64,000 nucleotides of DNA, taken from contig NZ_CP084061.1 in NCBI RefSeq assembly GCF_020215665.1, positions 5,988,501 through 6,052,500 of the forward strand, read 5' to 3'. Of the stretch, positions 1,597 to 60,344 are shown piece by piece (the stretch's first letter is position 1; each line of letters opens with the position of its first letter). Position numbers and translations under genes: made by a program. This stretch comes from Blautia parvula. Its GTDB lineage: Bacteria; Bacillota; Clostridia; Lachnospirales; Lachnospiraceae. The notes beneath the pieces are model-generated. The model was not told the origin of the DNA and did not search any database. It worked only from the letters and a program-made list of their open reading frames with translations.

Positions 1597-1797
1597 GGGG
1601 AAAGAAAGGGCCGGAGGCCGGGATGCCTCTTTCGTCAGGCGAGGTTAAGCGGAGTGAGTCGAAGATCCACCTGCCCCAGACACTTGGTGAGGAAGTCATT
1701 GCTGACGAACCTAGTGACTGGGAGCAGGTTAGCTGAGACGCACGGAGCCTCGAGCAGGACGAAAGAGGCATCCCGGCCTCCGGCCCTTTCTTTCCCC
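1597..1797 (+). repeat. Long palindromic structured element, copy 1
   Basis: Perfect 40-bp inverted arms at 1597-1636 and 1758-1797 enclose 121 nt. Inside, GATCCA (1664-1669) is followed by a five-base stem strand CCTGC (1670-1674), a core CACTTGGTGAGGA (1681-1693) and GACGAACCTAGTG (1704-1716), then the closing strand GCAGG (1724-1728) and TTAGCT. The same order of motifs with a different but still paired stem occurs at 40543-40717 and 41198-41380. It lies between the convergent DUF4179 and aroE genes, so it could also act as a terminator-like barrier. No coding potential was seen. Confidence 0.8.
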
Positions 1798-18529: not shown

Positions 18530-18765
18530 ATAAAAAAACCCTGAACAATCCTAAGACTGTTCAGGGACGATAAACAAGATACCGCGGTTCCACCCTTTTT
18601 GCAAATACCACTCATTCAGACGATAACGGTGTCGGCCGGACTTTATTAAAGCCGCTCCAGGGTGGTCTTCAAATGTTTCCCCATAGAATGCTCACACCGT
18701 ATGCATTCCTCTCTGCATGGATAGACATTTTACTCTTCCTGTCTACGCGTTGGTTCATATGGCAG
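18530..18765 (-). promoter_or_regulatory. T-box riboswitch upstream of thrS (tRNA-Thr sensing)
   Basis: The minus strand contains the T-box sequence GGTGGAACCGCGGTA (plus-strand 18581-18595), which base-pairs with uncharged tRNA acceptor ends. It is followed by a terminator hairpin at 18539-18566 with a run of T on the minus strand. Further upstream, a stem I-like segment carries the AGTA S-turn (AGGAAGAGTA near 18735). The start of the leader is approximate; the Thr specifier codon was not located with confidence. Confidence 0.9.
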
Positions 18766-40523: not shown

Positions 40524-40542
40524 CGGCATTTGGCGGACGCCG

Positions 40543-40717
40543 GGTCTGGTCATAAGCTTCCCTGTACGGACGGGAGCAGAGAACTTCCGAGCTAACACGC
40601 AACCCGCACTAAGTTCATCGCCTTAGGGCTCTTCACTAAGTGCTTGCTAGCGTGTGGATCTCGTAAGATTCTCTAAGCGCTCCTAAACGCCCGTACAGGG
40701 AAGCTTATGACCAGGCC
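40543..40717 (-). repeat. Long palindromic structured element, copy 2
   Basis: Arms 40543-40572 and 40688-40717 match at 28 of 30 positions. The central 46 nt (about 40604-40649) are identical, in reverse, to the core at 41198-41380. On the minus strand the order is GATCCA, stem CACGC (reads GCGTG at 40650-40654 on plus), CACTTAGTGAAGA, GATGAACTTAGTG, closing stem GCGTG, TTAGCT. Compared with the other copies, the stem bases differ but stay paired. Confidence 0.85.
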
Positions 40718-41197
40718 CGCCTGTTTTTCAATATGGGAATATACCTCCAGAATAACTGTGCCACGAAATAGATTATAAACTGCATGAAAAAGAAATTTCC
40801 TGTATTTACCTATAAGTTCAATAGAAATATCAGGGCTATATGTAATAATAAAGAGGTTTTGACAAGAATCATAATAATTTACCCATAATTTTTGTCTTAA
40901 GTAAAAAAATCATATGCAATATCTGGAATTACATTTTAAAAGTCTCTTATATTTACCTATAATTTCTTAAATGATAAACTCATTTATTTGTAGCAGCTTA
41001 AATTCGCCATTAAAATGATTCCGAATTTACATACCATATCATATCGAAATACCAAACTTATATGAAGTCATAAAAAAGAATGAGCATTATTCTGTCCTGT
41101 TATCAGGAATTTATCCGGCAGGATCTCCAATGCAGTTCGCAACATTTTTCGTGTTCCAATTATTTCCCACTTATCAACTGTTCCACATACAAAGTCA

Positions 41198-41380
41198 GCC
41201 GAACCTGGCCGCAGGCTTCCCCGCACGGGCGTTTAGGAGCGTCCAGAGAAGCTTACAAGATCCATGCGTTAGCAAGCACTTAGTGAAGAGCCCTAAGGCG
41301 ATGAACTTAGTGCGGCTTACGCATTAGCTTGTAAGTTCTCTGCTCCCGTCCGTGCGGGGAAGCCTGCGGCCAGGTTCGGC
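41198..41380 (+). repeat. Long palindromic structured element, copy 3
   Basis: Arms 41198-41231 and 41347-41380 match at 33 of 34 positions. Inside: GATCCA (41259-41264), stem TGCGT (41265-41269), core CACTTAGTGAAGA (41277-41289) and GATGAACTTAGTG (41300-41312), closing stem ACGCA (41319-41323), TTAGCT (41324-41329). Further outer stems CTTACAAG/CTTGTAAG, AGAGAA/TTCTCT and GGAGC/GCTCC are all paired. Confidence 0.85.
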
Positions 41381-41564
41381 GTCCGGGTATATATCCCTTC
41401 TAACCGGCAGTCAACACAGCACTATTTACCATATAAAAAGCATCATGCCGCTTGCGTTTTCCACGGCGAAGTGATAAAATTTTCAACAATAACATCTGCA
41501 GTGCAATATAACATAAATCACGATCCCACAGGAATAGAATGGGAAAAGCGGAGAGGAGAATAAC

Positions 41565-60271: not shown

Positions 60272-60344
60272 GCACTCGTAGCTCAGGGGATAGAGCAGTG
60301 GTTTCCGGTACCACGTGTCGGGGGTTCGAATCCCTCCGGGTGTG
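60272..60344 (+). tRNA. tRNA-Arg (anticodon CCG)
   Basis: 73 nt. The acceptor stem GCACTCG/CGGGTGT has two G-U pairs. The D arm is GCTCAGGGGATAGAGC, the anticodon stem GTGGT/ACCAC with loop TTCCGGT (CCG), and the T arm GGGGG-TTCGAAT-CCCTC. The CCA end is not encoded. It decodes CGG, a rare Arg codon. Confidence 0.95.

Follow-up and report, generated by a model that had tools for sequence, protein, structure and literature searches.

A REP-like family of long-hairpin repeats with a conserved apical module on copy-specific stalks

Skipping-rope RNA is a long hairpin with conserved positions, and CGTC-tagged REPs, a class of short palindromic repeats, have the order CGTC-hairpin-CCA. In the main text of a REP survey (PMC3733652), CGTC-tagged REPs are described as intergenic palindromes that end in an unpaired CGTC on one side and in a CCA-like tail on the other, with stems of 8–9 bp and loops of 4–5 nt. 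The same text describes their dimers as mostly having the tags outside, with heterodimers common in some families, and the repeats themselves as old, patchy and with no dedicated transposase found (PMC3733652). Template switching is able to maintain stems (PMC8794818). Here we describe hairpin elements in a 64-kb window, the whole stretch of DNA analysed, which belong to a new long-hairpin REP-like repeat family without an Rfam match, dispersed through intergenic regions of some gut bacteria; no earlier description of the family was found in the literature searched.

Anatomy, copy number and arrangement of the elements

Three hairpin elements lie in the window, at 1597–1797 (+), 40539–40721 (−) and 41198–41380 (+). 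All three had been placed by a sequence-only reading and were confirmed, with the limits of copy 2 corrected by eye to approximately 40539–40721. An exact search for the motif CACTTRGTGARGA-N-GAYGAACYTAGTG gave 3 matches in the window vs 0 in 100 shuffles, and each copy folds into a single long hairpin (z = −14.3, −12.4 and −16.5 for copies 1, 2 and 3, respectively, against dinucleotide shuffles). Direct reading agreed with the stems reported earlier around the core (CCTGC/GCAGG, CACGC/GCGTG and TGCGT/ACGCA), with the outer stems (CGAG/CTCG versus CAAG/CTTG) and with the 46 core bases that copies 2 and 3 have in common. In addition, all three copies have common ends that had not been listed, CA before the palindrome and GTCC after it.

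Copy 1 starts with a 5' leader ending in CA (1573–1596, +), which is loosely conserved among copies and whose left limit is approximate. It is followed by a class A hairpin of 201 nt (1597–1797, +, defined by fold z and arm alignment), in which the conserved apical module (1665–1732, +) runs from ATCCA at 1665–1669 to TTAG at 1729–1732 and is hit by both covariance models described below, and by the 3' tail GTCC (1798–1801, +, from position counts over 60 copies). Copy 2 is a class B hairpin on the minus strand with its 5' end at 40721 (40539–40721, from the fold, with the boundary set by eye at the CA and GTCC ends); model hits place its apical module at 40592–40659 (−), with ATCCA at 40655–40659 and TTAG at 40592–40595, and its 3' tail GTCC was read directly at 40535–40538 (−). 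A spacer of 476 bp (40722–41197) separates copy 2 from copy 3, leader to leader. Copy 3 is a class B hairpin of 183 nt (41198–41380, +, by fold z) with an apical module at 41260–41327 (+), in which model hits and the motif search located ATCCA at 41260–41264, GAAGA at 41285–41289, GATGA at 41300–41304 and TTAG at 41324–41327; its 3' tail GTCC lies at 41381–41384 (+, direct reading). The pair of copies 2 and 3 is also found at the orthologous loci of two related genomes (G008 and G009), where the spacer is shorter. The Rfam gathering matches of the window were a T-box leader at 18560–18754 (−) and a tRNA at 60272–60344 (+), and nothing else.

The unit consists of CA, a hairpin of 180–220 nt and GTCC, and from the outside in it is composed of CA, stalk, a 5'-side bulged region, the AUCCA/UUAG loop, a middle stem and the apex, with the GTCC tail on the 3' side. 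At the tip the internal loops are near-invariant and the middle stem varies by class. The apex of classes A and B has GARGA opposite GAYGA, in which the middle R-Y pair covaries (A-U in 40 and G-C in 13 of 53 sequences), and class C has a shorter loop than these two. A set of 34 diverse sequences showed no variation in AUCCA, in CUU, in three of the four UUAG bases and at some further positions, and the unpaired loops are kept across genera. Arms were measured in the 60 of 63 copies that had sufficient flank, giving 3364 Watson-Crick, 67 G-U and 13 A-C cells, as well as 138 other mismatches and 617 gaps that fall partly in conserved loops. Outside the apical module there are 43–76 Watson-Crick pairs per copy, about 45–65 in most, and pairing of the stalk is close to perfect. 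Both ends are well defined over these copies (last two leader positions, C in 57/60 and A in 56/60, with A at −7 in 48/60; tail, G in 56, T in 55, C in 56 and C in 57), and the flanks of the sense strand are G-poor (0.12–0.15 in the 150 nt to either side).

A covariance model of the core built from 53 sequences (R1) matched 32 positions in the window genome (G000), 33 in G008, including one weak relic (E 7.6e-4), and 14 in G009; 17 further genomes of this genus had no match at E 0.001. A second model (R2) added L030, a partner copy in the window genome, and L044, L045, L047 and L052 in G008, bringing the totals to 33 in G000, 36 plus the weak relic in G008 and 14 in G009; over 300 kb of sampled G000 sequence R2 returned only an already known copy. 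The wider family has matches in at least 8 of 396 other sampled genomes, a lower bound given the strict filters and the 10 candidates scored per genome; the match in G113 is weak, and a match in G344 looks like chance. An exact pattern search over a species collection, whose coverage near the window genome may be incomplete, gave 19 stretches in four MAGs, namely 13 in 'Clostridia bacterium INTA.CYC.029', 3 in Candidatus Paralachnospira sangeri, 2 in an uncultured Lachnospiraceae bacterium and 1 in Candidatus Pelethocola (Pelethocola is placed in Lachnospiraceae and Paralachnospira in Clostridia incertae sedis).

At 12 of the 13 loci with close pairs, less than 1.5 kb apart, the two units have their leaders facing each other. 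Six of these are in G000 (447, 2377, 3024, 5253, 5829 and 6029 kb), five are in G008 at positions unpaired in G000 (1051, 1163, 1415, 3512 and 4557 kb, of which the 3512 pair is also present in G009) and one is in a MAG (L095); at the thirteenth locus, L090, an element stands in tandem with a decayed copy.

Some other structures were seen in or beside elements. A hairpin of 119 nt at G000:4684677 (L034) has the same CAG and CGTCC ends and 43 perfect pairs without the apical module. A different hairpin of ~160 bp lies within the 3' half of a G008 element (L052, 2139–2300), with weaker matches in L117, L057 and L185. Tandem repeats occur between or beside some elements (L187, 730–1260; L007, 1690–2630; flanks of L028/L132, L012, L136 and L059), and by eye a few of them duplicate the GTCC tail together with its flank, as if the hairpin provoked slippage. 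In L072 (G310, contig 66) an element lies between direct repeats containing ATCCAGTTCAGATAACTGGCAG.

Stalk divergence, covariation and the favoured strand

Stalks were compared over the 35 outermost nucleotides of the 5' arm in the 32 G000 copies found by R1 (496 pairs). Their mean identity was 0.51 vs 0.47 for shuffled arms, and in 443 of the 496 pairs identity did not exceed the shuffled 95th percentile; for the core of the same copies the mean was 0.71. Among the 53 pairs whose cores were at least 0.90 identical, stalks were within the shuffled range in 26 and outside it in 27, the class B copies with their similar stalks being an example of the latter. In the core alignment of 53 sequences, 94.9% of 1060 cells were paired vs 27.6–41.1% with a slid partner, 239 cells had double changes, and none of 500 shuffles came up to the real alignment in pairing, in double changes or in covariation score; further pair types were no more numerous than in shuffles (385/500). 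The earlier view of the elements as a family with a conserved core and covarying stems was thus borne out over these 53 sequences. Core helix 3 was paired in 424 of 424 cells with no G-U, which is unusual for an RNA helix.

Imperfect pairs were distributed unequally between the strands. G-U exceeded A-C by 39 to 7 in G000 (by copy 20 to 1 with 11 ties, sign p 2e-5) and by 46 to 6 in G008 (22 to 0 with 9 ties), and weakly in G009 (9 to 4; by copy 7 to 2), although the copies are related and the counts are not independent. When pairs 28 or more bases away from the loop were counted alone, the ratios, resting on fewer mismatches, were 17 to 3, 17 to 4 and 2 to 3 in G000, G008 and G009, respectively, and changes between orthologs led to G-U in 32 cases vs A-C in 14 (p 0.011). 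Since a symmetric cruciform would give equality, the excess of G-U indicates that the hairpin of one strand matters.

For the ortholog comparison, 77 of the 79 model hits in the three genomes were used, leaving out the relic G008:5711727 and G008:3573931, and flank matching gave 32 pairs, taken pairwise among three genomes so that pairs share genomes and events are not independent. With gaps scored as differences, identity was 0.94 in the core, 0.86 in the arms and 0.63 in the 60-base flanks; core exceeded arms in 28 and arms exceeded flanks in 31 of the 32 pairs (the flank value of 0.00 for G000:5866807/G008:4557061 is meaningless because of an insertion inside the element). Changed arm pairs were compensated in 146 cases and led in 32 to G-U, in 14 to A-C and in 39 to other mismatches. 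The compensated changes comprised 85 transitions and 61 transversions (42% transversions) and the uncompensated ones 46 and 39 (Fisher p 0.58). As the two spectra are the same, and transversions cannot pass through G-U, these values support copying of one arm from the other as a template. The 26 pair cells in which both partners were lost also count for such copying, whereas the 71 cells gapped on one side alone count against it. Double changes were not clustered (18 vs 15.2 expected, reached in 468/2000 permutations), so multi-base template switches were not seen directly, in contrast to uncompensated changes, which were clustered (13 vs 6.3 expected, reached in 7/2000 permutations). Hairpins that have the same ends and lack the core contain 43 (L034) and 16 (L125) consecutive perfect pairs. 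Taken together, arm-to-arm template copying probably helps keep the stalk paired. In two comparisons of orthologous units the arms were more alike than the core (L028 vs L132, arms 95% and core 81% identical; L027 vs L059, 93% and 87%), where the apex was largely replaced and its changes were mostly paired; we favour conversion between copies, for which no donor was found.

Compensatory changes are commonly counted as the strongest evidence for RNA structure, and the sequence-only reading had taken the pattern to mean selection on a fold. As worded, this did not hold up, because template switching between arms also gives compensated changes; with compensation that looks templated, stalk covariation is weak evidence of selection. 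Selection on the fold is better argued from the unpaired loops, which arm copying would erase, and from a core identity well above that of the flanks, and these two are stronger evidence than the stalk covariation. At ortholog loci known from related species, the family provides dozens of long stems whose compensation looks partly mutational, with conserved unpaired loops as the mark of selection, and it could serve to test directly how perfect stems are kept.

Mobility, working form and alternative explanations

No target-site duplication, the criterion for a MITE, was detected in the flanks (left-right score, own 6.3 vs cross 6.16; 4/60 above the cross 95th percentile). Searched as the sole enzyme family, Y1_Tnp was absent from G008 and G009, while G000 had a single partial match containing a stop, and mobilisation by a resident HUH/RAYT Y1 transposase was therefore rejected. 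Among sites without an intact copy there was no clean empty site: four are deletion relics keeping one or both ends (L125, L126, L128 and L129), L130 holds a fragment, and at L127, L131, L133, L134, L135 and L138 the junction is too diverged to define. In G009, the site that corresponds to one G000 element (L033/L135) has another short palindromic insertion in the region upstream of the gene. Spread by phage, plasmid or virus was rejected as well, with no match in plasmids (copy 3), phages (copy 1) or viral contigs (exact pattern). As far as the three genomes show, the repeats appear to be old and not to move in this clade, and their copy number points to past mobility.

The explanation to which we give slightly better than even chances is that the elements are old REP-like long-hairpin interspersed repeats, in which the sense-strand hairpin has a function and the stalk is kept mainly by arm copying. 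An apical module on a copy-specific stalk, fixed ends, leader-to-leader units and orthologs in three species are the observed part of this explanation. The sense-strand hairpin would be the working form, probably as RNA, and its internal loops may be read by a protein; the stalk would act as a spacer, with complementarity of its arms maintained mainly through template copying from one to the other and partly through selection. Some enzyme would have spread the units in the past, and present losses would occur by internal deletion. Between the two forms RNA is more likely than single-stranded DNA, with the transcript putative.

A structured non-coding RNA family of many dispersed genes, acting in trans or in an RNA-protein particle, is a possible reading that we regard with reserve. 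The conserved loops and covariation, the asymmetry of G-U over A-C, and the common ends with a loosely common leader would all fit it, as would the longer gene-free stretch on the leader side (median 269.5 nt vs 77 nt on the tail side, 58 each); however, a crude scan found no promoter excess upstream of the leader (sense 7.14 vs antisense 7.34), no recurrent neighbour gene was noticed, core helix 3 lacks G-U, and copy number and pairing resemble interspersed repeats. Neighbouring genes, taken from simple ORF calls with orthologs included, had mixed orientations (−− 20, ++ 14, +− 12, −+ 10; n = 56), which together with the null promoter scan weakens an RNA role. That gene orientation matters little agrees with a single-stranded DNA hairpin moved or used by an enzyme reading one strand (HUH, recombinase-like or other), as do the fixed ends, the asymmetry between strands and leader-to-leader pairs like those of REP dimers. 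This reading is rather unlikely, since two of the three carriers have no Y1_Tnp, no empty sites were found, and the replication-strand bias estimated from skew and dnaA is weak (of 78 related copies, 47 have the sense strand as the lagging and 31 as the leading strand).

Gene distances speak for a cis-acting terminator or mRNA-stabilising hairpin: the tail was nearer a gene than the leader in 49/56, a gene lay within 100 nt of the 3' tail in 38/58 and of the leader in 6/58, and by eye several copies show hairpin-CTG(G)TTTT on their opposite strand. On the other hand, orientations are mixed, with divergent genes flanking 10/56 copies, and by eye a terminator-like hairpin of the gene's own separates some neighbours from the element, so we consider such a role unlikely. 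That the palindromes are neutral and dead, kept perfect through replication template switching alone, would explain both the equal spectra of compensated and uncompensated changes and the perfect core-less hairpins L034 and L125, but is very improbable given unpaired loops conserved across genera and a core far more conserved than the flanks. A coding sequence, suggested by an ORF (1545–1736) that crosses copy 1 and by 29/36 class A-like cores being without a stop in that frame, has almost no probability left: the other 7/36 have an in-frame stop, class B has one as well (TAG in ACTTAGTGA, by eye), and coding is thereby refuted as a general reading. Returning to the REP-like long-hairpin repeats, we tentatively suggest a wider step, that they may represent a new class of one-strand hairpins with an invariant tip read by a protein and stalks kept perfect by arm copying, either structured RNAs or single-stranded DNA mobile elements with an enzyme of their own; if so, two copies could have the tip in common and nothing of the stalk sequence.

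Comparison with known systems

Skipping-rope RNA, which had been proposed as a candidate, resembles the present elements in being a long hairpin with conserved positions, but its model was unmatched: its own Rfam model (RF02924) had hits over the gathering cut-off in 0/3 genomes, and 0/12 weak hits lay on an element. HEARO, also suggested, was covered within scans of all Rfam, where the elements gave no hit above any family's cut-off. Rfam 15 E-value scans of the three copies and 13 related loci gave sub-threshold hits on elements, mostly to eukaryotic miRNA, snoRNA and lncRNA families. As for the REP/RAYT class, the leader-to-leader pairs resemble REP dimers in their layout, and RAYT (Y1_Tnp) was missing from G008 and G009.

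Both end motifs of CGTC REPs flank the present hairpin, but compared with the usual order, CGTC-hairpin-CCA, the ends seem swapped here, where one strand reads CA-hairpin-(C)GTCC. Like those REPs, the present elements are old and patchily distributed. Their dimers have the tags outside at 12/13 loci, the arrangement that the main text of PMC3733652 gives as the most common. The difference is in size, with a stalk of 43–76 Watson-Crick pairs and a conserved apical module of ~70 nt here vs the stems of 8–9 bp described there (PMC3733652). Since they fail the size criteria, the elements are not classed as CGTC REPs despite the REP-dimer layout. GTAG REPs and REPINs with RAYT share inverted hairpin pairs and long persistence (PMC3733652, PMC8049555), but the present elements have no GTAG tag at their ends and two of the carrier genomes have no Y1_Tnp. 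ERIC, YPAL and bcr1 are similar in being about 100–170 bp, in having tens of copies and in being able to fold, and are set apart in that parts of their descriptions do not mention copy-specific arms on an invariant tip (PMC2229807, PMC2267715). The main text of the REP survey PMC3733652 contains none of Clostrid-, Firmicutes, Lachnospir- and Blautia, and Lachnospiraceae are not named there or in that of PMC12306157. Of these comparisons REP is the useful one, and the family would add a Lachnospiraceae branch to the REP-like repeats.
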